This document shows, piece by piece, positions 31,656-45,036 of a stretch of DNA of 64,000 nucleotides. A program made the translations under genes and the position numbers. How positions within the stretch are numbered: the stretch's first letter is position 1; every line of letters begins with the position of its first letter. Source of the stretch: an uncultured bacterium (GTDB taxonomy: Bacteria > Verrucomicrobiota > Kiritimatiellia > CAIKKV01 > CAIJXV01). The stretch is from the NCBI GenBank assembly GCA_903824675.1, contig CAIJXV010000058.1, positions 1 through 64,000 on the forward strand. Direction: 5' to 3'. Below the pieces are notes generated by a model that saw only the letters and a list, made by a program, of their open reading frames with translations, ran no database searches and was not told the origin of the DNA.

Positions 31656-32441
31656 ATGGACGCACGCGACGCGAATAAAATGGTGGCGGTTCCCTCCGCC
31701 CCCGTAGGCCGGGATATTGTCATCCGGGCCTTGGGGGTGAAACGGTATTATGGCCGGGGAGAAACCGTCACCAAGGCGCTGGATGGGGTCGATCTGGAGA
31801 TCTTCCGCGGGGAATATTTTTCAATCATGGGGCCCTCCGGGTCCGGCAAATCGACCCTGTTCAACATGATTGGCGGGATTGACGCCCCCACCGAGGGGAT
31901 GGTCTTCATCGATGAAATCGATATCGCCCAGTTGGATTCCTACGAATTAGCATGGATGCGTTGCCACAAAATCGGCTATATTTTCCAGTCCTACAATATT
32001 CTCCCGGTGCTGACCGCCTTGGAAAATGTGTCATTACCGATGATTTTTGCCGGATTGACCCCGGATCAGGCGCGGGATAAGGCGGCGGGTATTTTAACGC
32101 GGGTGGGATTGGGGACCCGTGTTTTTCACCGACCCTACGAGTTATCGGGCGGACAGCAACAGCGGGTCGCGGTCGCCCGTGCCATGGCGAACGATCCGGT
32201 CATCATTCTGGCCGACGAACCCACCGCCAATCTGGACGTCAACACCGGCAAAGAGATGATCGATTTGCTTCTCCAACTCAAGGAAGAGGACAACGTAACG
32301 ATTATCTCCGCCACACATGACATGAAAATGCTGGATGTTTCCGACCGGATTCTATGGATTCGCGACGGACGCATTCAGCGGTTGGAAGAGCGCAAAAACC
32401 TGGATATTCATATCGGGACCATCGAAAGCGCACCGGAGTAA
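31656..32441 (+). CDS. ABC transporter ATP-binding protein (MacB/LolD-like)
   Basis: Walker [10 protein letters not shown], signature [14 protein letters not shown], Walker [14 protein letters not shown]. Confidence 0.95.
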
Positions 32442-32451
32442 GGAAGTTCAC

Positions 32452-32826
32452 ATGTTCGGATGGGTTAAAGCCAAGCCGCCCGTGATTAACCGGGAACAGT
32501 CCTTGACAGGCGTCCCGATGATCAACGAGGGGGTTCGTGTTCAGCCGCGGGAAGAGGATGTCCAGCGCCTGGAATTGGTGATTCGCCTGCGCCGGGGGGG
32601 TGGTTTTTTGTCGCGATTCATGCCCCCGACCCTGGAGCGGAAGGTGAAACTGGACGAATTGGGGACTTTTGTGTTCGGTTTGATTGACGGACGGCGGAAT
32701 GTGCGGGAGATTGTCGAGGCGTTTTTGGCCCGGTACCGGGTGAACCGTCGGGAAGCGGAATTGAGTACAGTGGAATTTATCAGGTCCCTGGCCCAGCGTC
32801 AGGCCATATCGATTGTGATCCGATGA
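32452..32826 (+). CDS. PqqD-like family protein
   Basis: KVKLDELGTFVFGLIDGRRNVREIVEAFLARYRVNRREAELSTVEFIRSLAQRQAI fits the PqqD pattern. Confidence 0.75.
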   Translation: MFGWVKAKPPVINREQSLTGVPMINEGVRVQPREEDVQRLELVIRLRRGGGFLSRFMPPTLERKVKLDELGTFVFGLIDGRRNVREIVEAFLARYRVNRREAELSTVEFIRSLAQRQAISIVIR

Positions 32827-35800
32827 AACGAATGTTGATTTTATGGATGGGAGTTGTCTGTGGCCTGGTGTCCCTGGCACAGGCCGCAATGGGCGGAGAG
32901 TCCACCCCGGCAATGACGGAATTGCGGGAGCTGGTTCGCGACGCTGAAATGCGGTTTCCGGGGAGTCCGGGCAATCTCTTGCTTCAGGACAAAATCGGCC
33001 GATTGTTCGAATCGAGCGGATTGCCCTCGGGGAGCATGAGTTTCAATACCCCGGTTTTCGTGCCCGGTCCGGCTTCGCTGGAGTGGGCGGGGGGGGAACC
33101 TGTCCGCCTCTATACCTTTGGTCCAACCCTGGGTCGGCCGGGTAATTTTGCCGAAAAGGACTTCGAAGCCCCGCTGATCTATCTGGGACGGGGAGAGACG
33201 GCGGATTGGGACCGGTTGGACGGCCGATCATTGCAGGGTGCCATCGCGGTCATGGATTATGAGTGTGGTAATTTATGGCTACGCGTTCTGCGGATGGGGG
33301 TCCAAGGGTTCATTTTCATCGGTTCCGACCGGTATTTGCATGTGGATTCGGTCGCCAAGCTCTACACCTCTGAAGTCGCGGTGCCCCGCTATTTCATCCC
33401 CGCCTCCGACGGGGCCCGTCTCCGGGAGCGTCTGCAGGGACCCGCTGCGCTGACGGCCCGGATTCGGAGCGAACCTTCGGTCTGGCGGGAGGCGACCCTG
33501 CGGAATCAATGGGTTTTGATTCCCGGACAGGATCCGGCCTTGAGCAATGAAGTGGCGACTCTCGTGGCGCCGTTGGATAGCCAGTCGGCGGTTCCGGACC
33601 TCTCCTATGGCGCCCAATCCGCAGCGAATTTGATGGTGTTGACCCGCCTGTTGGATACGCTGCGACAATCCCCACCGGCCCGCTCCATTCTGCTCGTCGC
33701 CGTCAATGGGCACACGCTGAATTTTCTCGGGGAGCGGATGCTCTCCTGGAATCTGCTGGCCCCCCAGCTCGACGTCGAAAAAGTGCGAAATACGCTCGCC
33801 CAGGAATTGCGCAGCCAAACGGTCTTTCTTGAAAAGTACAAACCCCTCATATTCGACGGGGCGCATGATCAGACGAATGAGGACTACCTGGTCAATCTGC
33901 GTTTCATGAGCGACGATACCTCCGGTAAAATCCTCTCGATCAAGGAACCGGCGGTCGCCATGGCCAAGCGTGATTTGAACCAGGTTAAATCCCGAATGGC
34001 GGAACTGTTTCGGAGCGGATTGGATAAGGACGATAATCGGGTGCAATACGCCCGGTTGAAAGGGGAACGCGACGAGTTCACCCATGTGTTGACCCTCTTC
34101 AATAAAGTGGGGATCGTGTCCCGCTGGGGCGAATTGACGCCGAATGAACGCGGCATTCTGAAGGGTTATATTTCCGAGATTCGCAGCATGCTGACGAGTG
34201 GCATCGAGTTGAACCGGCAGGATCTCGCGGTCAGCACTGAAAACAGCCGGATTCGGGCCGTTTTAGCGGGGCGTCAGGTGGTTCTGGCTTTATCGCTGGA
34301 TCTGGACTGGCAAACGGATGATTACGGATTTTCGGCCAATAATAGTTGGGGAACCAAGCGTTGGCCCGCCCGGTTTGGCGCCAATCTGACACGGGTGGTT
34401 CAGACGGATGGCGGCATCAACCATTTCCGGGACACGTTGAGCCTGCTGGGTGGACTTCCCGAAGGACATTATTTCAATAGTGAGTCGTCCGGTTTGATCG
34501 TTTTTCATGCGGCGAGTGCGACTCCCGATAAGGGGGGGACCCCGGCCTTCAGCCTTCGGAATCTCTTCAGCAACCCCGGGGCGGCTTTCTCGCCCGGCGA
34601 CACCCTCGAGTCCCTGGATCCGGCCCGGGTCGAGACGTTGTGCGCAGAAATACCCCGTTTTTTCCAGGCCTTTTTGGCGGATCGCAAATTGACGATGCAG
34701 GGCGAATTGGATCGGCCCAAGGAGCGATATGATTTCGAATCCCGACTGTGGTCGATCCGGGTCCGGACCTTCAAGTTCGATGAATTTGCAGCGGGTGTGG
34801 TGCCGACAACGCCGGTCCGGAATACCTTGTTGGTTCTGAATGATGGGTCGCTGGGAACCGTGGGGCCTGTGGTCGGGACGGATGTGATCAATGCCTATAT
34901 TGCCCTGACGGATCATCGGGCGGCCGCGGTCGTATATGGGATATTCCGTTTGGGGCCGTTGTACTGTGCCGCTTTCCAATACGATTCGGCCTATGGAAAG
35001 GTTTTGCACGCATTGGATATCGGCGAGGTGAGCGGACGGGTGCCGAGTAGCGTGGCGAATTTGAATGAACAGACCCTGGCGCTGTTCTCCGTGGGCGAAG
35101 AAATTCCGGTTTTTGCGCGGAATGATTCGTCGCTTTTGGGGGCGGGGGCGATCCAGGCGAACAATTTTATCTTCCTGGAAGCCCGTAATAATTCGAGTCC
35201 CCGAAAATATTATGTGACCGGCGCTACGGCGACCTTGTCGAAGCGGGGGCCGATACCGGTGTTGAGCGGGCCGGCCGCCTTTTTTACGGATGGCCGGGAA
35301 ACGGTGAAAATCATGACCGACCAGAAGCGGCTGGCGATCCGGCCCACCGAGAAACAGCCCGATGGGATCGGGTATCGGACCCGGGCGGAATTGGGGGATG
35401 ATTTCATGGCCGTGGCGGCGCGCGACATGGAATCGTTGAACCGCCAGCGAATCAGCCGCTTGCGGGGGGTGTCGGACGAACTGGCCCAGGAATTTCTGGA
35501 GAAGGGCCGGGTGCAACTCGTCGGGATGAATGCCGCCCAGGCGGAACACCGGCATCTGGCCTATTTGAAATCGCTTTATGTGGCCTTGGGCGCCCAGACC
35601 AAGGCCTACCTTCAGCAGAGCCTGATCACGAATGATATGTTGAAGGCCGTGGTTTTCTATATGGCCTTGATGTTGCCCTTCTGTTTTTTCCTCCAGAAGC
35701 TGATTTTTAATTTCACCAAGGTCGAGGCACAGATGGGGGCCTTTGTCCTGTTGTTCATGGGCACTTATGTTTTATTCCGGACGATTCACCCCGCGTTTCA

Positions 35801-37769
35801 TGTCGCCCAGGCGCCGGAGGCGATGTTCATCGCCTTCGTCATGGGCGCGCTCGGCGCGTTTGTCATCCATATTTTACACGGTCGGTTTGAAGGCGAAATG
35901 CACGTCTTGTTCCACACTGTGGTCGGAACCGATTCCTCCGATGTGGGCTATTCCACGGTGACTCAGCAGGCGATGCTGATCGGGGTCAACAACATGAAAC
36001 GGCGGCGGATTCGGACCGCGTTGACCACCGGCACGATCGTGCTGGTTACCTTTACCATGCTGGCCTTCACCAGTATTTCCAAGAAGATGAGCCCGACGAT
36101 TGTCGCCCAGGGCAAGCAGGCGCCGTATACCGGCTTGTTGTTCCATATGCCGGGAGCTCCCATGGACGAAGCCTCCCTGGAGGTGTTATCCGAGCTCTTT
36201 TCGGGCGAGGGCGATGCGGTGGTTCGACGGTGGACCTTGGCGCCCAGCACCAAGGAAAGCAGTTATCCCTGGCGGCTCGATCTGCCGGGAACCAACCGTG
36301 ACGTTCGCATCGAGGCGGTGTTGGGGCTGGATCGTAAGGAGGACGGGTTCCTGTCGTCTCTTCCGTTGGTTGCGGGCGGACGGTTTTTCAGCGCGGATGA
36401 CGCCGAGGAGGCGATCCTGATGTCCGCCACCGCGTTGGCATTGGGCGTTACGCCCGCACAGGTGGAGACCGGGATCTCGGTTCGCTTCCAGGGACGGATT
36501 CTCCGGGTGGTGGGAATTATGGACGACGAGCGATTCAGTGAAATCAAGGATCTGGATGGTTTGCCGTTATTGCCGATCAAGAAGATGCTGACCCAGGCCG
36601 GTGCGGCCGATGCCTCGGCGCCCTCGATGTCGGCTGACGAAAATACGCGCAGTGGGGTCTTGTTCGCGGATGCCGCGACGGTATTAGTCCTGCCCCAATT
36701 GACGGCGCGATCCTTTAAAGCGGCGCCTTACAGCTTCTCGATCCGATTCAAACCCGGCACGGCAATCTGGACGGTGGTCGAAAAACTGTTAACCGCGACG
36801 CAGGCCAAATTTTACATCAGCAGTACCGAGGGATTTGCCCCCTCGGCGCAATCGAAGCACAAGACCGAGCCGGGCATTTACTATGTCGGCACCGGGTATC
36901 ATACCGCGATCGGCGGGCTGAATGTGCTGATCATCCCCCTGCTGATTGCCAGCACGATTATTCTCAACACCATGTTGGGTGCGGTGTTTGAGCGGAAAAA
37001 CGAAATCGCGATTTATAATGCGGTCGGGTTGAATCCGACCCATATCGGGACCTTCTTCCTGGCGGAGGCGTTCGTCTACAGTGTCATTGGCTCCATTGGA
37101 GGCTATTTGATCGGCCAGTTGCTGAGTATCGGCTTGAATCACTTCCATTTGGTCCAGGGGATCAATCTGAATTTCTCGTCGTTGAGTGTGGTCTATGTCA
37201 TTGTGTTTACGATTTTGGTGGTGATGTTGTCCACGCTCTATCCGGCGATTGTGGCGACCAAAGCCGCGGTTCCTTCGGGGAAACGGACCTGGTCCATGCC
37301 GGCACATGATGGTCTGCGGATGGAATTGCTGATGCCGTTCATCTGCCGGCCGGATCTGATCGTCGGGATGATGGCCTATCTGGAGGACTATTTTGACCGG
37401 TTCACCGAGGCTTCGGTGGGGGAAATCATCGCGCGGCTCGAGAGCCGGGAACGGGGTCGGGATGCAGCGGGCCGCGAGACCTACACGCTCCGGTACAATC
37501 TGGCACTGGCCCCGTTCGATTTGGGCGTGACCCAGACCGTCGAATTCCATGCGGCTTTTGATGACCAGTTATCGGCCTACCGGATCCGCTTGCGCATCGA
37601 CCGGGTCTCCGGGCAGGACAACAACTGGGTGACCACCAACCGGCCGTTCCTGGAAAAATTGCGTGCCTATCTGATGCACTGGCGCAATCTGGGCGCGTCC
37701 CAACAAGGCCTTTTCGTCGAGCGGGGAACGCAGACGCATGCGGCGACCGCGGACGCAACGAAAGCATAA
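32823..37769 (+). CDS. Giant FtsX-family permease with N-terminal PA/M28-peptidase-like extracytoplasmic region (1648 aa)
   Basis: Signal peptide; PA-like APLIYLGRGETADWDRLDGRSLQGAIAVMDYECGN; M28-like NLMVLTRLLDTLRQSPPARSILLVAVNGHTLNFLGERM; FtsX-like TIILNTMLGAVFERKNEIAIYNAVGLNPTHIGTFFLAEAFVYSVIGSIGGYLIG. Confidence 0.85.
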   Translation: MKRMLILWMGVVCGLVSLAQAAMGGESTPAMTELRELVRDAEMRFPGSPGNLLLQDKIGRLFESSGLPSGSMSFNTPVFVPGPASLEWAGGEPVRLYTFGPTLGRPGNFAEKDFEAPLIYLGRGETADWDRLDGRSLQGAIAVMDYECGNLWLRVLRMGVQGFIFIGSDRYLHVDSVAKLYTSEVAVPRYFIPASDGARLRERLQGPAALTARIRSEPSVWREATLRNQWVLIPGQDPALSNEVATLVAPLDSQSAVPDLSYGAQSAANLMVLTRLLDTLRQSPPARSILLVAVNGHTLNFLGERMLSWNLLAPQLDVEKVRNTLAQELRSQTVFLEKYKPLIFDGAHDQTNEDYLVNLRFMSDDTSGKILSIKEPAVAMAKRDLNQVKSRMAELFRSGLDKDDNRVQYARLKGERDEFTHVLTLFNKVGIVSRWGELTPNERGILKGYISEIRSMLTSGIELNRQDLAVSTENSRIRAVLAGRQVVLALSLDLDWQTDDYGFSANNSWGTKRWPARFGANLTRVVQTDGGINHFRDTLSLLGGLPEGHYFNSESSGLIVFHAASATPDKGGTPAFSLRNLFSNPGAAFSPGDTLESLDPARVETLCAEIPRFFQAFLADRKLTMQGELDRPKERYDFESRLWSIRVRTFKFDEFAAGVVPTTPVRNTLLVLNDGSLGTVGPVVGTDVINAYIALTDHRAAAVVYGIFRLGPLYCAAFQYDSAYGKVLHALDIGEVSGRVPSSVANLNEQTLALFSVGEEIPVFARNDSSLLGAGAIQANNFIFLEARNNSSPRKYYVTGATATLSKRGPIPVLSGPAAFFTDGRETVKIMTDQKRLAIRPTEKQPDGIGYRTRAELGDDFMAVAARDMESLNRQRISRLRGVSDELAQEFLEKGRVQLVGMNAAQAEHRHLAYLKSLYVALGAQTKAYLQQSLITNDMLKAVVFYMALMLPFCFFLQKLIFNFTKVEAQMGAFVLLFMGTYVLFRTIHPAFHVAQAPEAMFIAFVMGALGAFVIHILHGRFEGEMHVLFHTVVGTDSSDVGYSTVTQQAMLIGVNNMKRRRIRTALTTGTIVLVTFTMLAFTSISKKMSPTIVAQGKQAPYTGLLFHMPGAPMDEASLEVLSELFSGEGDAVVRRWTLAPSTKESSYPWRLDLPGTNRDVRIEAVLGLDRKEDGFLSSLPLVAGGRFFSADDAEEAILMSATALALGVTPAQVETGISVRFQGRILRVVGIMDDERFSEIKDLDGLPLLPIKKMLTQAGAADASAPSMSADENTRSGVLFADAATVLVLPQLTARSFKAAPYSFSIRFKPGTAIWTVVEKLLTATQAKFYISSTEGFAPSAQSKHKTEPGIYYVGTGYHTAIGGLNVLIIPLLIASTIILNTMLGAVFERKNEIAIYNAVGLNPTHIGTFFLAEAFVYSVIGSIGGYLIGQLLSIGLNHFHLVQGINLNFSSLSVVYVIVFTILVVMLSTLYPAIVATKAAVPSGKRTWSMPAHDGLRMELLMPFICRPDLIVGMMAYLEDYFDRFTEASVGEIIARLESRERGRDAAGRETYTLRYNLALAPFDLGVTQTVEFHAAFDDQLSAYRIRLRIDRVSGQDNNWVTTNRPFLEKLRAYLMHWRNLGASQQGLFVERGTQTHAATADATKA

Positions 37770-37775
37770 GGATTT

Positions 37776-39782
37776 ATGTCGAAGCCGAATCGTTTTGATG
37801 CCGAATTGGATCAGTACCGGAATCTGATGAAGGCGCCGGGGAAGTTTGCCGATGGGTTTAACTGGAAAACCATCGTCGGCGCCTTCTTCTTGGGCGTGGT
37901 GATGATGCCGGCCTCAATGTATCTCAGCCTTTTTGCCGGGGCCGGGGTCGGGGGCGCCGCCCAATGGGTGACCATCATTATTTTTGCCGAGATTGCCCGC
38001 CGGTCGCTCAAGGAATTGCGAATGCAGGAGGTCTACATCCTGTATTATATGGCGGGGTTGGCCATCGCGTCGCCCTTCAGTGGTCTGCTTTGGAACCAGT
38101 ATTTTGTCCAGTCGGAATATGTCAAGGCCATGGGGATTGCACAGGATATTCCCGCGTGGTTTGCTCCCCAGGAAGCGGTGATTCGCGAGGCGGGGCGGAC
38201 CTTTTTCACCAAGGCCTGGCTGGCGCCCATCCTGTTGAGTTCGCTGGGATTGGTCGTCGGCATGATCGACAATTACGGGTTGGGATATGTGCTTTACCGG
38301 ATTACGAGCGATGTCGAGGAATTACCCTTTCCCATGGCGCCGGTCGCGGCTTCGGGAATCGTCGCCCTCACCGAGAGCAAGGCCGAACGGGAATCCTGGC
38401 GGTGGCGCTGTTTCTCGATCGGCGGCATGCTGGGTCTCCTGTTTGGGACGATTTACATCGCGGTTCCCGCCGTGACGGGGGTCATTCTGACCAAGCCGCT
38501 GCAGTTTATTCCCATTCCCTTCATCGATTTGACGCCGCAGTTGACGCAGTTTTTCCCCGCCACGGCGTTCAATGTCACGCTCGATATCGGCGCGTTCATT
38601 GCGGGGACGGTCATCCCCTTCTGGGCGGTGATCGGTTCCGCCCTGGCAACGGTTCTCAATCTGTTGATTAACCCCTTCCTTTACCGGCACGGGATCATCA
38701 CCAGTTGGACCCCCCAGATGGATTTCATCGATACCTCCTTTAGCACCTCGCTCGATTTCTATCTCTCCTTCGGGATTGGAATCACGATCGCGGTCTCCCT
38801 GATCAGTATGGGAAAGGTGTTCAAACCGCTCTTCGGAGTGTTGGGGCGGAAACTACGGGGGAATTCCGGGTCCGAGGATCTGGCCGCCGCCGCGGTCCGC
38901 AAAGCGGCATGGAAACGGCTCTTTACCAATAATGTCGAGCGTGGCGACTTTTCGATCTTCATCGCCTTGGGAATCTACCTGGTGAATAGTGCGCTCTGGA
39001 TCGGGTTGTCCTGCTGGCTGGTCCCGGGTTTCCCCTGGCCCTTTTTTGCCTTCTATGCGCTGGTCTATACCCCGATGATTTCGTATGCCGCCGCCAAGTT
39101 GGAGGGCTTGATGGGGATGTCGGTGTCCATTCCCCTCATCCGCGAAGCCACCTATATTTTAAGCGGGTATCGGGGCGTGGCGATTTGGTTCGCACCCGCG
39201 CCGCTTCCCAATTATGGAACGGCCGCCGGATCGTACCGGGTCATGGAGTTGACCGGCACCAAGATCCGTAGCGTGATGAAGACCCAAATGGTGGTGATTC
39301 CGATCATCATCGTGTCCTCGTTGATTTTTTCTGAAATTCTCTGGCGCATGGCGCCGATCCCTTCGGATTCCTATCCCTATGCCCAGAAAATGTGGGAGTT
39401 GAACGCCAAAAACATGAGCTTGACCTACAGTTCCACCATGGAAGGCGGATCCCTTTTCATGGAGTCCTGGCGCTGGCCTTTCTTCTTTACCGGAATGGGA
39501 TTCGGATTGATCGCCTATCTGCTGTTGTCCGCTTTCGGCCTGCCCACGCTGTTGATTTTCGGGATGGTCCAGGGTTTGGGAGCGGCGGTGGGCGGCGGGT
39601 TCCTGTTATCCTTAATGGGGGCCCTGGTGGGACGGTTCTATTTGCGGCGCAGGTTCGGGTCGGATTGGCTTAAATATGCGCCGGTGATACTGGCCGGCTA
39701 TGCCTGCGGCATGGGGTTGATCGCCATGCTGTCGGTTTCTTTCACGATCTTGATGAAAATGATGTCGCCGTTGCTTTTCTAG
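37776..39782 (+). CDS. OPT-family-like (oligopeptide transporter) multispanning membrane protein
   Basis: NWKTIVGAFFLGVVMMPASMYLSLFAGAGVGGAAQWVTIIIFAEIARRSLKELRMQEVYILYYMAG and many hydrophobic helices. Confidence 0.75.
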   Translation: MSKPNRFDAELDQYRNLMKAPGKFADGFNWKTIVGAFFLGVVMMPASMYLSLFAGAGVGGAAQWVTIIIFAEIARRSLKELRMQEVYILYYMAGLAIASPFSGLLWNQYFVQSEYVKAMGIAQDIPAWFAPQEAVIREAGRTFFTKAWLAPILLSSLGLVVGMIDNYGLGYVLYRITSDVEELPFPMAPVAASGIVALTESKAERESWRWRCFSIGGMLGLLFGTIYIAVPAVTGVILTKPLQFIPIPFIDLTPQLTQFFPATAFNVTLDIGAFIAGTVIPFWAVIGSALATVLNLLINPFLYRHGIITSWTPQMDFIDTSFSTSLDFYLSFGIGITIAVSLISMGKVFKPLFGVLGRKLRGNSGSEDLAAAAVRKAAWKRLFTNNVERGDFSIFIALGIYLVNSALWIGLSCWLVPGFPWPFFAFYALVYTPMISYAAAKLEGLMGMSVSIPLIREATYILSGYRGVAIWFAPAPLPNYGTAAGSYRVMELTGTKIRSVMKTQMVVIPIIIVSSLIFSEILWRMAPIPSDSYPYAQKMWELNAKNMSLTYSSTMEGGSLFMESWRWPFFFTGMGFGLIAYLLLSAFGLPTLLIFGMVQGLGAAVGGGFLLSLMGALVGRFYLRRRFGSDWLKYAPVILAGYACGMGLIAMLSVSFTILMKMMSPLLF

Positions 39783-39789
39783 GACAAGC

Positions 39790-42726
39790 ATGAAATCGAA
39801 AACGATAACTGCGCGGGCTATTTCCCTGGGCTTGCTGGTCTCCGGGTTGTTTGCCTTCCTGTCGGTCTATTTCGGCAATCGCCATGGGTTGTACCTGACG
39901 GCCACCCAGATGGCGGTGCTGCCTTATATCTTTCTGTTCTTCACGGTCTTGCTGCTGAATCCGATCTGCTCCCTGATCCGGTTCTTGCGCCCGTTTACCG
40001 TGACGGAAATATTAGTGGTATTTTGCATGGGCACGGTCTCGGCCGGGATCAGCTCGTTCGGGTTGACCTCTCAATTGGTGCCGATCACCGGCAATTTATT
40101 CAATCGCCATTGGAACACCGAACAATCGGGGTGGGACCGGTTGGTGGTGCCCTTCATGAACGAGCAGTTTTTTGTTTCGGAACCGGGTATCCAGAATGCC
40201 GCGCTGCGGTATCACTCGGCGTCAGAGGACTTGCGGCTGATTCGGCACCGAATGGAGCTGTCGGAACAGTGGCTGGCGGCCCGGGAACATGTCGGCGCGG
40301 CCGAAACGGATCTGGCCGCGGCACGCGAGGGGACGGCGGGTCAGCGGCAGATCAAAATCAATCGGGCCGAAGGGCGGTTGCGGGCGGCGCGGGAGGCTCT
40401 TGAGAACCAGGGCAAGCTGTGCCGGGAGGCGGGATTGCCCGCGGATCCGGGTGACGCGCTCAAAGCCGATCGGGAAAGTCTGCCCGGACTCGAGGCCACG
40501 ATTGCGGTCCGCAAGACCGAATTGCAGGTCCTCAGCGAAAAAGCTTTTGAAAAAGTCGAACTTTACCGACAGGGCCTACCTTCGAATATCCGGGCCTTCC
40601 CGGGAATCTTTCCGTCGCCGGCCGATACGCAGGTGACCTACGCGGGACGGTTGACCCGATTGTGGTATGGGCGGTCGGCGTTGATCGAGTTGCGGAGTGC
40701 CTATGAATGGCTGGGGACGCCGGGACAAACGGCCATGGCGGGCGGCGCCTTCACGGAAGCGGCTCGAAACCTGGCACCGATCACCGCCCGGATGTCCATG
40801 GTTGTCGCCGACCGGACCGATGTCGAGGCCGAGGTTGAAAAATCGATCCGGGAACAGGAAGCGGCTCGGACTGAAATTGAACGCCTGTCGGCCTTGAGCC
40901 GATCCGCGACACCCAATGAACGGCGCGCACTGGAACGGCGGATGGTTCGCCTGGATAGCCGCCTATCCCGGATGGATCGAGACCTGGTCGATCTCAAGGC
41001 CCGGCGCGATGCCCTGGTGACCGAAGTGTCGATTTTGGAGTCCATCGCAACGTTGGAACAGGACACCACCCGCTGGGTGGAGCAGGCGAAAGCCGTGACG
41101 ATTCCGGGCGGACTGCGCACCGATGTGGGCGATGCGATCCGGCGTTTGGCGACGATGGACACCACGCTGGGCGGGTTCCTGGTGGGATATGTTCCGTGGA
41201 AGGTCTGGATCCGGCCCCTGATGTTTTGGGGATTGTTGATCGGATTCACCTATCTGGTTCTGCTGACCTTCAATATTCTGATTTTCAGGCAGTGGGCGCA
41301 CAACGAGAAACTGATTTACCCGCTGGCTGAATTACCGGAATACCTGTCCGGCAGCGAAGAAACCACGGATGGACGGGTGCCGGGGATTTTCAAGAGCGGC
41401 TTCTTCTGGGTCGGTGCGGCCATTTCGGGTGGAGCCCTCGGCTGGAATCTGCTGTGCGCATCGGGTTTGGTCCAGGGATTAAAACCCCTGGTGTTGAATA
41501 ATTTGTGGCGTGACTACATCATTAACACACCCCTGCATGGATTGCTGCCGGTCACCCGGTCGCTGGTGTTCTTTACGATGATCGGGTTCGCCTTCCTGAT
41601 TCCGCAGAAAGTTTCGTTCTCCCTCTGGTTTTTTACCGTTCTCTACATGGTTCAATTATTGATCCTGGTGGGGTTGGGCCATGGCACGACCGAGGATTCC
41701 TTCCCCATGGAATGGTGGTACACGTTGAATTTCAGGACGGCGGAAGGGGCGGGGGCCCTGATGGTATTCTCGGCCGTGGTCCTGTACCGCTGCCGGCGCT
41801 ACATCCTGTCGGCGTTTTCAGCCAAGGCCGTCTGCCATCTCGAGCGCGATGAGCAACTCGAATTGCGGATCTCCTCGGCCCTGTTCCTGCTGGGATCACT
41901 GGGGGTGATCCTGATGCTCTGGAAGGGTTTTGGCGCCAATTTATATTTTACGGTGTTCACGTTCATCGTCATCCTGATGATTACGATCGGGCTGGTCCGG
42001 GCGGTGGCGGAGGGCGGCATCCTGGGGTTCCAGGCGTGGGTCAGCCCCTTCCATTTTATCCGGACCTTTTTCGGCATGGACAAGGCCTGGACGACACCGG
42101 CGTTGTTTGCCCCGCTCATGGTTTATTATTCGGTGTTGTTCCTGGACATCAAGGCCTTCATTGCGCCGGCGATGGCGAATGCGATCAAGATTCGCGATGA
42201 TTTGCGTTTGGGCCGGGGCCTGTTCCACCTGTCGATTGCCGGGGCGATTCTGGTTGCCGTGGTGGTGGCGGTGGGCGCCGAGATCATGTTCAGCTATGGG
42301 ATGGGCGGGGACAAGATGAACGGCTGGTTCCACGGGAGTTTGCCCAAGGGGCTCTTCGACCAGATCGCCACGATGAGTAAAAATCCGCCCACGGCCTCCC
42401 CGACGGACACGGGATGGTTTGTTTTTGGCGCGACGGCCATGGCCATTCTGCTCTACCTGCGTCAGTTCCTTTTCTGGTTGCCGCATCCGATCGGGTTTAT
42501 CATGCTGGTCAATCCGATCATGCTCGCGTACTGGTTCTCGATCCTGATCGGCTGGCTGGCCAAGACGCTGGTAACGCGCTATGGGAATCAGGATTCGTAC
42601 CGCAAGGCCCGGTTCCTTTTCGTCGGTCTGATTTTCGGCGAATTGATCCTGGTGGCGATCAATATGCTCCTCTCCTATGAGACGGGCGTGCGAAGCGTCA
42701 TCGATTACAATTACAACTGGAAATAA
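39790..42726 (+). CDS. DUF6785-like multispanning membrane protein with long coiled-coil insertion (978 aa)
   Basis: TM helices at both ends; central charged region (about residues 140-450) with heptad-like content; WWYTLNFRTAEGAGALMVFSAVVLYRCRRYIL. Confidence 0.65.
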   Translation: MKSKTITARAISLGLLVSGLFAFLSVYFGNRHGLYLTATQMAVLPYIFLFFTVLLLNPICSLIRFLRPFTVTEILVVFCMGTVSAGISSFGLTSQLVPITGNLFNRHWNTEQSGWDRLVVPFMNEQFFVSEPGIQNAALRYHSASEDLRLIRHRMELSEQWLAAREHVGAAETDLAAAREGTAGQRQIKINRAEGRLRAAREALENQGKLCREAGLPADPGDALKADRESLPGLEATIAVRKTELQVLSEKAFEKVELYRQGLPSNIRAFPGIFPSPADTQVTYAGRLTRLWYGRSALIELRSAYEWLGTPGQTAMAGGAFTEAARNLAPITARMSMVVADRTDVEAEVEKSIREQEAARTEIERLSALSRSATPNERRALERRMVRLDSRLSRMDRDLVDLKARRDALVTEVSILESIATLEQDTTRWVEQAKAVTIPGGLRTDVGDAIRRLATMDTTLGGFLVGYVPWKVWIRPLMFWGLLIGFTYLVLLTFNILIFRQWAHNEKLIYPLAELPEYLSGSEETTDGRVPGIFKSGFFWVGAAISGGALGWNLLCASGLVQGLKPLVLNNLWRDYIINTPLHGLLPVTRSLVFFTMIGFAFLIPQKVSFSLWFFTVLYMVQLLILVGLGHGTTEDSFPMEWWYTLNFRTAEGAGALMVFSAVVLYRCRRYILSAFSAKAVCHLERDEQLELRISSALFLLGSLGVILMLWKGFGANLYFTVFTFIVILMITIGLVRAVAEGGILGFQAWVSPFHFIRTFFGMDKAWTTPALFAPLMVYYSVLFLDIKAFIAPAMANAIKIRDDLRLGRGLFHLSIAGAILVAVVVAVGAEIMFSYGMGGDKMNGWFHGSLPKGLFDQIATMSKNPPTASPTDTGWFVFGATAMAILLYLRQFLFWLPHPIGFIMLVNPIMLAYWFSILIGWLAKTLVTRYGNQDSYRKARFLFVGLIFGELILVAINMLLSYETGVRSVIDYNYNWK

Positions 42727-42731
42727 TAAGC

Positions 42732-43403
42732 ATGGATAAGGCCCCCCAGCAGATGGACGAGATTCCCAACCAGCGCGAAGTGGCCTGGCCGATCGCTTTT
42801 TCGGTGGCTTGGGGCAGTTTACGCCGGCGTTTCATGCGGGCCATGATCACCATGGCGGGGGTCATTCTGGCGATCGCCTTCCTGACCTATATGCTGATTA
42901 CGGACAATGTCAACCAGGCTCTGTTGGGTTTGCGCAGTGATGCGGTGAATATTCTGCTCCAAAAGGCCGGGGTGGATATCCTGGCGGCGGGGGCGACAGA
43001 CCAGATGATGTTGATGTTGATCGGCCTCTCGTTAATCACCTGTCTGGTGGGGATCATCAATGCGATGCTGATGGCGGTCACCGAGCGGATCAAGGAGATC
43101 GGGACGTTGAAGTGCCTGGGGGCGCTCGATTCCTTCATCGTTAAAACCTATTTCATCGAGGCCTCCTTGCAGGGGATCATCGGGACGGCGATGGGGATGG
43201 CCATCGGCTTTCTGATCGCGATCCTGATTGCCCTGTCGTATTATCACCAGTATGTCTTTCCGAATCTGCCCATGGGACGGATCGTGGGATCCTTGTCGAT
43301 CTCCCTGACGGTGGGCAGTCTGATTTCCATTGCGGCCGCCATTTTGCCGGCCTATTGGGCCGCACAAAAGGCGCCAGTGGACGCCATGAGGGTTGAAGAA
43401 TGA
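42732..43403 (+). CDS. Minimal FtsX-family ABC permease (223 aa)
   Basis: SLITCLVGIINAMLMAVTERIKEIGTLKCLGALDSFIVKTYFIEASLQGIIGTAMGM; LPAYWAAQKAPVDAMRVEE terminus. Confidence 0.9.
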   Translation: MDKAPQQMDEIPNQREVAWPIAFSVAWGSLRRRFMRAMITMAGVILAIAFLTYMLITDNVNQALLGLRSDAVNILLQKAGVDILAAGATDQMMLMLIGLSLITCLVGIINAMLMAVTERIKEIGTLKCLGALDSFIVKTYFIEASLQGIIGTAMGMAIGFLIAILIALSYYHQYVFPNLPMGRIVGSLSISLTVGSLISIAAAILPAYWAAQKAPVDAMRVEE

Positions 43404-44140
43404 CCGATATACCGATTATCCGCACGGTCAACGTGAAGAAAATTTACCGCATGGGGACCCATGAAGTCCATGCCCTGCGGGGGATTACCCTGGACATCAA
43501 GGCCGGGGAATATGTGTCGATCATGGGGCCGTCGGGCTCCGGCAAATCCACCTTCTTCAATATGGTCGGGGTGCTGGATATGCCCAGCGAAGGGGAAGTC
43601 TTCATGCGGGGCCATCCGGTCTCAAAACTCTCGCCGAGTCAACTGGCCTGGGTGCGCTGTCATAATATCGGTTATATTTTCCAGTCCTTCAACTTGATCC
43701 CCACCATGACCGCCCTGCAAAACGTGTCGATTGCCCGGATTTTTGCCGGCTCGAGCCCCGCCCAGGCGCGCGACGAGGCGGCCAAGGTCCTCGACCAGGT
43801 GGGCTTGGGCAACCGGATTCACCATGTGCCGGGCCAGTTGTCCGGCGGTCAACAGCAACGGGTGGCGATTGCCCGGGCCTTGGTCAATCAGCCCGCGATC
43901 ATCCTCGCCGACGAACCGACGGGTAACCTGGATCTTCGAACCGGCGAAGAGATCATCAATCTCCTGTCGAAAATGAAATCCACGATGGGCATCACCATCA
44001 TTACGGCCACGCACGATATGAAGATGCTCTCCGCCTCCGATACCGTGGTTCGAATCAAGGACGGGGCGGTCGAAAGCGTGCAAAGCCGGGATGAAATCCA
44101 GATCAGTGTGGGGACCATCGACGGCAAGACCCTGGCATGA
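43400..44140 (+). CDS. ABC transporter ATP-binding protein (MacB/LolD-like)
   Basis: [35 protein letters not shown]; 4-bp overlap with the preceding gene. Confidence 0.95.
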   Translation: MTDIPIIRTVNVKKIYRMGTHEVHALRGITLDIKAGEYVSIMGPSGSGKSTFFNMVGVLDMPSEGEVFMRGHPVSKLSPSQLAWVRCHNIGYIFQSFNLIPTMTALQNVSIARIFAGSSPAQARDEAAKVLDQVGLGNRIHHVPGQLSGGQQQRVAIARALVNQPAIILADEPTGNLDLRTGEEIINLLSKMKSTMGITIITATHDMKMLSASDTVVRIKDGAVESVQSRDEIQISVGTIDGKTLA

Positions 44141-45036
44141 GTTCAGAGCTCTCCCAACCCAGTCCAGCCGAACACCGTTTCGCCTGGGACGGGTTCGAAT
44201 TTGTCGTCCCCGCCGATTGGAATCTATCCTTTTACGATTTCTCCAACTCCGCTTCCCGTGTCGTTCGCCTCGAGGATGATGTCGGGATCCGGCTCCAAAT
44301 GGAATGGTGCCGCCCCCAGGCCGCGGTCGGGTTGGATCGGATCCAGTCCCGTTTCAAGGAACTGGGGGGCCAGGTGGAGACGATGGCCGAGTCGCAGTCG
44401 GCGGTGGAGGGATTGCCGGCGGGATGGACCGGCCTGATTTACGTGATGCCCGACAAGCGCCGTCTGGCGGTGGCTTTTTGGCTGGCGCCGGCCGGTCGGT
44501 TCTTTGTCTTTTTTCGCCTGCACTTCGATGGGGAAGGCAGTCGACAGGCCGGACAGGTCTTGCGTCGACTGGCCACCAGTTTCCGGCTCCAAACGGAACC
44601 CGCGATCGCCTGGCGGTGTTATGACCTTGATCTTGAATTGCCCGCCGATTTCCGCCTGGCGGAGACGGCCTTTCAGGCCGGTCGTAAATACATGCTCTTC
44701 GACTGGCATTTGCGGCGATTTTTCTTCTGGCAGTTTTCCCTGGCCGACCACGTGCTCGCCCGGAAACCCGATCTGGTGGACTGGGCTGCCGATTTCCTCA
44801 ACCATTGCAAATTTATCCGGGGGCCCCGTTTTTTCAAGGAAGGCGGACGCCTTCAAAACCAGCGTCGGGCGCAGTATCCCCTCGGCCATTATGACGAAAT
44901 CGGCCGGTTGTGTTTTCAGTGGTGGACCCGGGTCTGGCATGATCCGGATGAAAACTGGATTCGGTTGATGGTTTTTAATTACCGGCGGCCGTCTGATCTG
45001 GACCGGTTGCCGTCCTCCGTACGCGGCGGAGCATAG
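44137..45036 (+). CDS. Hypothetical protein (299 aa), last gene of the transport operon
   Basis: 4-bp ATGA overlap with the ABC ATPase. FAWDGFEFVVPADWNLSFYDFSNSASRVVRLEDD; family not recognised. Confidence 0.75.
   Translation: MSSELSQPSPAEHRFAWDGFEFVVPADWNLSFYDFSNSASRVVRLEDDVGIRLQMEWCRPQAAVGLDRIQSRFKELGGQVETMAESQSAVEGLPAGWTGLIYVMPDKRRLAVAFWLAPAGRFFVFFRLHFDGEGSRQAGQVLRRLATSFRLQTEPAIAWRCYDLDLELPADFRLAETAFQAGRKYMLFDWHLRRFFFWQFSLADHVLARKPDLVDWAADFLNHCKFIRGPRFFKEGGRLQNQRRAQYPLGHYDEIGRLCFQWWTRVWHDPDENWIRLMVFNYRRPSDLDRLPSSVRGGA

Follow-up and report, generated by a model that had tools for sequence, protein, structure and literature searches.

What is a peptidase fold for when it is built onto a membrane permease and has lost the residues of its active site? 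The question is raised by an intact open reading frame at 32823–37769 of the window, by which we mean the whole 64,000-nucleotide stretch of DNA analysed, from an uncultured bacterium of the class Kiritimatiellia. The frame lies on the forward strand, as do all the window features given below, and encodes a fusion protein of 1648 residues. A sequence-only reading had proposed that this is a catalytically dead peptidase fold serving as the substrate-binding exodomain of a mechanotransmission permease. The fold, the loss of the metal site and the permease family bear this out, here and in a broad family of proteins, while substrate binding would be the presumed role.

The fusion and its pseudo-peptidase head

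The protein starts, as the sequence-only reading had it, with a signal peptide (residues 1–21, MKRMLILWMGVVCGLVSLAQA; 32823–32885), recognised by eye from the sequence and from hydropathy. This is followed by a PA domain and the first M28-like part (residues 22–317; 32886–33773), a helical insertion (residues ~318–478; 33774–34256), the second M28-like part (residues 479–620; 34257–34682) and a region that is rich in beta structure in the AlphaFold model (residues 621–860; 34683–35402). A helical stalk with extra hydrophobic helices (residues 861–1060; 35403–36002) leads into the FtsX/MacB permease (residues ~1061–1485; 36003–37277), made up of TM1, a MacB_PCD-like periplasmic domain and TM2–4, and the protein ends in a conserved domain (residues 1500–1648; 37320–37766).

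Some match to the protein was found in 52 of 58 whole genomes from the same order or class, the weakest being to FtsX domains alone. Full-length relatives in these genomes are 47–50% identical and many others about 30%, and 34 neighbourhoods were taken from them. When GTDB species genomes were scanned with the permease part, at least 552 relatives emerged; by record title the best 80 belong to Lentisphaerae, Kiritimatiellae, Verrucomicrobia, Planctomycetes, Omnitrophota, Armatimonadota, TA06, Gemmatimonadetes, Poribacteria and others. Because these relatives were picked by their permease part, the state of the peptidase site in them is unbiased by the choice.

The PA-like and M28-like segments noticed in the N-terminal half are only weakly detectable in the single sequence and clear in the family. 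With the fusion alone, Pfam gave Nicastrin at residues 247–323 (E = 0.022), which at 14.7 bits does not reach the cut-off of 25, and searches of NCBIfam and the PDB picked up the FtsX unit and not the PA/M28 part. A profile of residues 22–345 built from 34 relatives, on the other hand, matched the PDB chains of the M28 aminopeptidase 2ek8 (1.5e-16), YwaD (2.9e-14) and nicastrin (4e-10), followed by KP1/PaAP (5e-9), nicalin (3e-7) and leucyl aminopeptidase (1e-5). Among 34 family members Pfam finds Peptidase_M28 in 18 (best 1.8e-11), Nicastrin in eight and PA in two. The AlphaFold2 model of residues 22–1050 (mean pLDDT 87.7, pTM 0.86) agrees with the profile search, in that the top Foldseek matches in the PDB belong to the M28 clan: 2ek8 (4e-16), PaAP, BSAP, the transferrin receptor and GCPII. 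The TM-scores reach no more than 0.60 by target length (BSAP 0.60), a modest value that is partly due to the helical insertion. Members from Armatimonadota, Omnitrophota, TA06 and Gemmatimonadetes do not have this insertion, and the family profile jumps from about residue 327 to 503 in them. From homology and modelling we therefore assign residues 22–620 to a PA plus M28 aminopeptidase fold, an M28 alpha/beta fold with a PA insertion in the style of the YwaD/PaAP branch. The earlier alignment by eye had the fold right. Since the insertion at ~318–478 splits it, however, the second half, with Asp493 and Phe589, lies further downstream than that alignment implied.

We number the M28 site as in the Aeromonas aminopeptidase, where we take the zinc ligands to be His97, Asp117, Glu152, Asp179 and His256 and the catalytic residue to be Glu151. 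At the place of the acidic motif of M28 enzymes the fusion reads VNGHTLNFLGERM, so that His297 and Thr298 (33711–33716) occupy the positions of the catalytic Glu151 and the zinc ligand Glu152. The loss of this Glu pair had been noticed before, but it is not limited to the pair: Pro250 (33570–33572) replaces His97, Gln265 (33615–33617) replaces the bridging ligand Asp117, and Phe589 replaces His256. Five of the six catalytic and zinc positions are thus substituted, and of the five zinc ligands only Asp179, as Asp493, survives. The loop carrying Gln265 has a one-residue deletion, and its register with Asp117 was fixed by alignment with genuine M28 enzymes. In that control set, 20 enzymes of the same class counted in the same columns after removal of five antisense frames, the site reads H in 20/20, D in 19/20, E in 19/20, E in 20/20, D or E in 20/20 and H in 19/20. 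Separately, at one locus of a related genome (L174:843–3588, G033), an open frame of about 1471 residues apparently joins a genuine M28 peptidase, its ligands present, to a beta-lactamase-like serine hydrolase domain.

The relatives do not retain the full set of zinc ligands either. Glu152 is kept in 0/95 and His256 in 0/96, His97 and Glu151 in 5/94 and 5/95 respectively, and Asp179 in 49/95. By a strict count no relative keeps more than two of the six positions; by a lenient one, accepting Asp or Glu and a neighbouring register, a single protein reaches four, and both glutamates are present in none. No protein among these ~95 relatives, which represent some ten phyla, has a working catalytic set. 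In a tree, which is unrooted and contains long branches, the exodomains form one group apart from the genuine M28 enzymes with a support of 100/100. This grouping is consistent with a single loss, and the zinc and catalytic residues were probably lost once, in a common ancestor.

Conservation shows that the dead site is not in decay. Its former active-site loops have a median score of 0.43, against 0.32 in the remainder of the domain (p = 1e-7), and hold 11 of the 30 most conserved positions, with 3.6 expected. Asp252, at the position of Asp99, is kept in 93 of 94 relatives and Asp593, at that of Asp260, in 94 of 96, while the catalytic Glu151 has become His in 76 of 95 (80%). In the PA part and its link, conservation is highest at Trp152, Pro188, Arg189, Tyr/Phe190 and Trp221. 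This pattern fits a retained candidate binding cleft; a structural or interface role would look similar, and the conservation of the loops could instead serve the stability of the fold or an interface between proteins. The exodomain might accordingly be purely structural, a dead M28 fold that dimerises, in the way of the transferrin receptor, or serves as a dock for the OPT-like and DUF6785 proteins described below, with no ligand transported or sensed. Such a role would suit an obligate partner, the presence of the transferrin receptor, a non-peptidase M28 relative, among the Foldseek matches, and the strong variation of the insertion and beta regions among clades. We nevertheless consider it somewhat unlikely, as the positions preferentially conserved are those of the former active-site loops and the PA domain, and one histidine is kept at the catalytic position in four fifths of the relatives.

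The permease unit and its operon

The FtsX-like helices are confined to the C-terminal part, as had been noted. Pfam places FtsX (PF02687) at residues 1369–1481 (1.7e-13, above the gathering score) and MacB_PCD (PF12704) at residues 1065–1251 with an E-value of 5e-5, just below the cut-off. In single-sequence searches of NCBIfam and the PDB the closest relatives are ADOP, LolC, MacB and FtsX, all of them far under the equivalog cut-offs, and the fusion therefore fails as a LolCDE or MacB equivalog proper (LolC 28/473 bits; MacB 18/966 bits). A second profile (A3, against the PDB) reached MacB at 4e-15. The model of residues 950–1648 has a pLDDT of 81 and a pTM of only 0.49; with it Foldseek found MacB (1.7e-12), LolE (1.3e-11) and then YtrF, HrtB, FtsX and the isolated MacB periplasmic domain (3ftj; TMt 0.57, rmsd 3.7). 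Two features of type VII permeases are present, a periplasmic domain between TM1 and TM2, seen in the sub-cut-off PF12704 match and the 3ftj match, and an associated ATPase of the LolD/MacB type. Profile and model evidence together identify residues 1065–1481 as a MacB/LolC/FtsX (type VII ABC) permease. Hydropathy and the model place extra hydrophobic helices at ~939–1033, which suggests about three additional TM helices ahead of FtsX TM1. The C-terminal domain is probably cytoplasmic by topology. It is strongly conserved across phyla and gives weak Foldseek matches to START/PRELI (Ups1) lipid-binding folds (E 0.006–0.02).

In the window the operon runs in the order ATPase, PqqD-like protein, fusion, OPT-like transporter, DUF6785/6784 protein, mini-FtsX, ATPase and a 299-residue protein. 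The first ATPase (31656–32441; Pfam ABC_tran 9e-32) is of the LolD/MacB/DevA type, its Walker A, signature and Walker B motifs all intact, and scores 6e-64 against LolD and 8e-62 against MacB in NCBIfam, both below the equivalog cut-offs. It is followed by a PqqD-like winged-helix protein of 124 residues (32452–32826; Pfam PqqD 8e-10, and itself conserved in this neighbourhood), the start codon of which is inferred. A protein of this RiPP-recognition type here accompanies an ABC/OPT operon in which no RiPP genes were seen. Downstream of the fusion are the OPT-like transporter (37776–39782) and the DUF6785/DUF6784 membrane protein (39790–42726; Pfam 1.9e-67 and 6e-22, and co-occurrence), the N-terminal half of which contains a long, charged stretch resembling a coiled coil. 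The mini-FtsX (42732–43403; Pfam FtsX 4e-16) is a permease of 223 residues almost without a periplasmic domain and a candidate heterodimer partner of the fusion. In divergent operons (L040–L050) it has ~490–540 residues, and its TM1 and TM2 are separated by a long, helical-looking segment that is absent from the window copy. A second ABC ATPase (43400–44140; ABC_tran 2.6e-34) and the 299-residue protein (44137–45036), which is conserved in part of the operons and gives no match in a Pfam search, complete the set.

Much of this arrangement recurs. Among 51 loci with ample flanks the OPT-like gene is present in 50, an ATPase in 48, mini-FtsX in 44, DUF6785 in 38 and the PqqD-like protein in 37, and mini-FtsX and the ATPase occur together in 44. 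The Omnitrophota and TA06 loci inspected have the fusion and OPT-like genes, no ABC ATPase nearby and a small protein in front, so we do not extend an ATP drive to these members. In two of them (L114:2990–3547 and L131:4251–4796) a TPR-like-looking protein of ~180 residues lies directly upstream of the fusion, replacing the ABC genes.

The OPT-like partner

The assignment of the downstream transporter to the OPT family comes from Pfam matches to PF03169 in 5 of 31 members of its family (best 1e-10), most members being below detection; its profile gave no match in the PDB. Comparison with DUF6785 by hhalign gave only a weak relation (36.6% probability), and we claim no kinship.

Of the 96 loci whose downstream flank covers at least 900 bases, 79 have the OPT-like gene on the same strand within 400 bases of the end of the fusion. 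Of 243 genomes sampled from the phylum, 42 carry the fusion; the OPT-like protein is found in 41 of these and in none of the 201 others (Fisher p = 8e-46, shared ancestry ignored). In the lone exception (G214), the genome is 86% complete and the fusion lies at the edge of a contig. Copy numbers of the two proteins nearly always match, including in genomes with two or three copies. DUF6785 has nearly the same distribution, in that 40 of its 41 genomes carry the fusion, and one (G093) has DUF6785 alone. A frame of 2324 residues over the OPT-like gene in G146 had the look of an OPT-FtsX fusion but proved spurious, being a GC-rich open stretch that overlaps the FtsX gene and is read in a different frame. 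On these genomic grounds the OPT-like transporter is an obligate partner of the fusion. It did not figure in the sequence-only reading and, with the wider operon, probably matters as much as the dead site.

An obligate pairing might still join two separate functions, for example an ABC system of the envelope-stress or lipoprotein type beside a nutrient transporter, co-inherited in one operon and not forming one machine. The presence of DUF6785 and the 299-residue protein in the operons, and of DUF6785 without the fusion in one genome, would be in keeping with this. We regard it as improbable given the almost one-to-one matching of fusion and OPT-like protein, even in genomes with several copies, and given that in the Omnitrophota and TA06 loci the two stay together where the other genes are missing.

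Proposed working and known systems

On balance we think it somewhat probable that the fusion is a type VII ABC permease subunit with a pseudo-aminopeptidase head, kept as a binding or gating surface beside the OPT-like transporter. In this scheme the two LolD/MacB-type ATPases would drive a heterodimer of the giant FtsX subunit, that is the fusion, and mini-FtsX, and its opening and closing would move the stalk in the periplasm together with the pseudo-peptidase head, which would bind a ligand, most simply a peptide or the N-terminus of a protein, in the former substrate cleft beneath the PA domain, and would either present it to the obligate OPT-like transporter, in a physical complex, or gate that transporter. 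We infer the energy coupling and any direction of transport in the same way. In a more far-reaching version, which is possible but doubtful, the type VII ABC module would act mechanically on an OPT-family carrier, driving or gating it by way of the pseudo-aminopeptidase receptor. The outcome would be a previously undescribed, ATP-powered and receptor-fed translocation of peptides or proteins in PVC bacteria, Armatimonadota, Omnitrophota and other phyla. That the head is still an enzyme with a rebuilt site, perhaps for another metal or reaction (His297 with Asp493, or in the Armatimonadota type Asp at His256 and Glu at Asp117), is very unlikely: the frequent His at Glu151, Asp at Asp179 (Glu in 26), Asp at His256 (32/96) and Glu at position 265 (32) would be in its favour, but the other positions in the fusion are Pro, Gln, Thr and Phe, poor or impossible metal ligands, the combination varies by clade where a catalytic site should be constant, and the equivalents of Glu152 and His256 are never kept.

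Pseudo-M28 heads are known in eukaryotic membrane machines, namely nicastrin, of gamma-secretase, and nicalin. With these and the transferrin receptor the fusion shares an M28-derived extracytoplasmic head on membrane machinery, though they are eukaryotic and are not ABC permeases. The peptidase-derived ectodomain of nicastrin has been proposed to be the substrate receptor of gamma-secretase, and it keeps a Glu (E333) that is thought to lie in the former pocket (PMC2647162), where the fusion family mostly has His. Nicastrin is the nearest working analogy. The head of the fusion would most likely be a nicastrin-like pseudo-enzyme exodomain with a receptor or gating role in a type VII ABC-OPT complex. 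The PA-bearing M28 aminopeptidases (2ek8, YwaD/BSAP, PaAP) have the same fold and PA/M28 order, but the fusion is without their zinc ligands and catalytic Glu, carries a permease and has, in its clade, the helical insertion.

FtsX-type TM helices, a MacB_PCD-like periplasmic domain and separate LolD/MacB-type ATPases are common to the fusion system and MacB, LolCDE, YbbAP and FtsEX. Unlike these, the fusion has about 1000 extra residues, comprising the PA/M28 pseudo-peptidase head and the extra TM helices before the FtsX unit, and its system includes the adjoining mini-FtsX and the obligate OPT-like partner. Mechanotransmission in MacB homologues has been reviewed (PMC5985334). The type VII system YbbAP works with a periplasmic hydrolase, TesA, which is active and separate (PMC12646458), whereas the hydrolase fold here is dead and fused. 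The partner, in turn, differs from the OPT family it matches in being mostly below detection and strictly tied to the FtsX fusion.

In the open-access literature we found no published description of the fusion, and nothing relevant on DUF6785/DUF6784 or on FtsX with PqqD or OPT. The arrangement of a dead M28 head on an ABC permease, beside an OPT-like gene, is kept across many phyla and looks like an undescribed envelope machine. A bacterial pseudo-M28/ABC fusion that is dead yet conserved, and linked one-to-one with an OPT-like protein, would be a tractable system for studying how a dead peptidase becomes a receptor or a gate, and the family may represent a composite transport machine of a new sort, in phyla that have been little studied.
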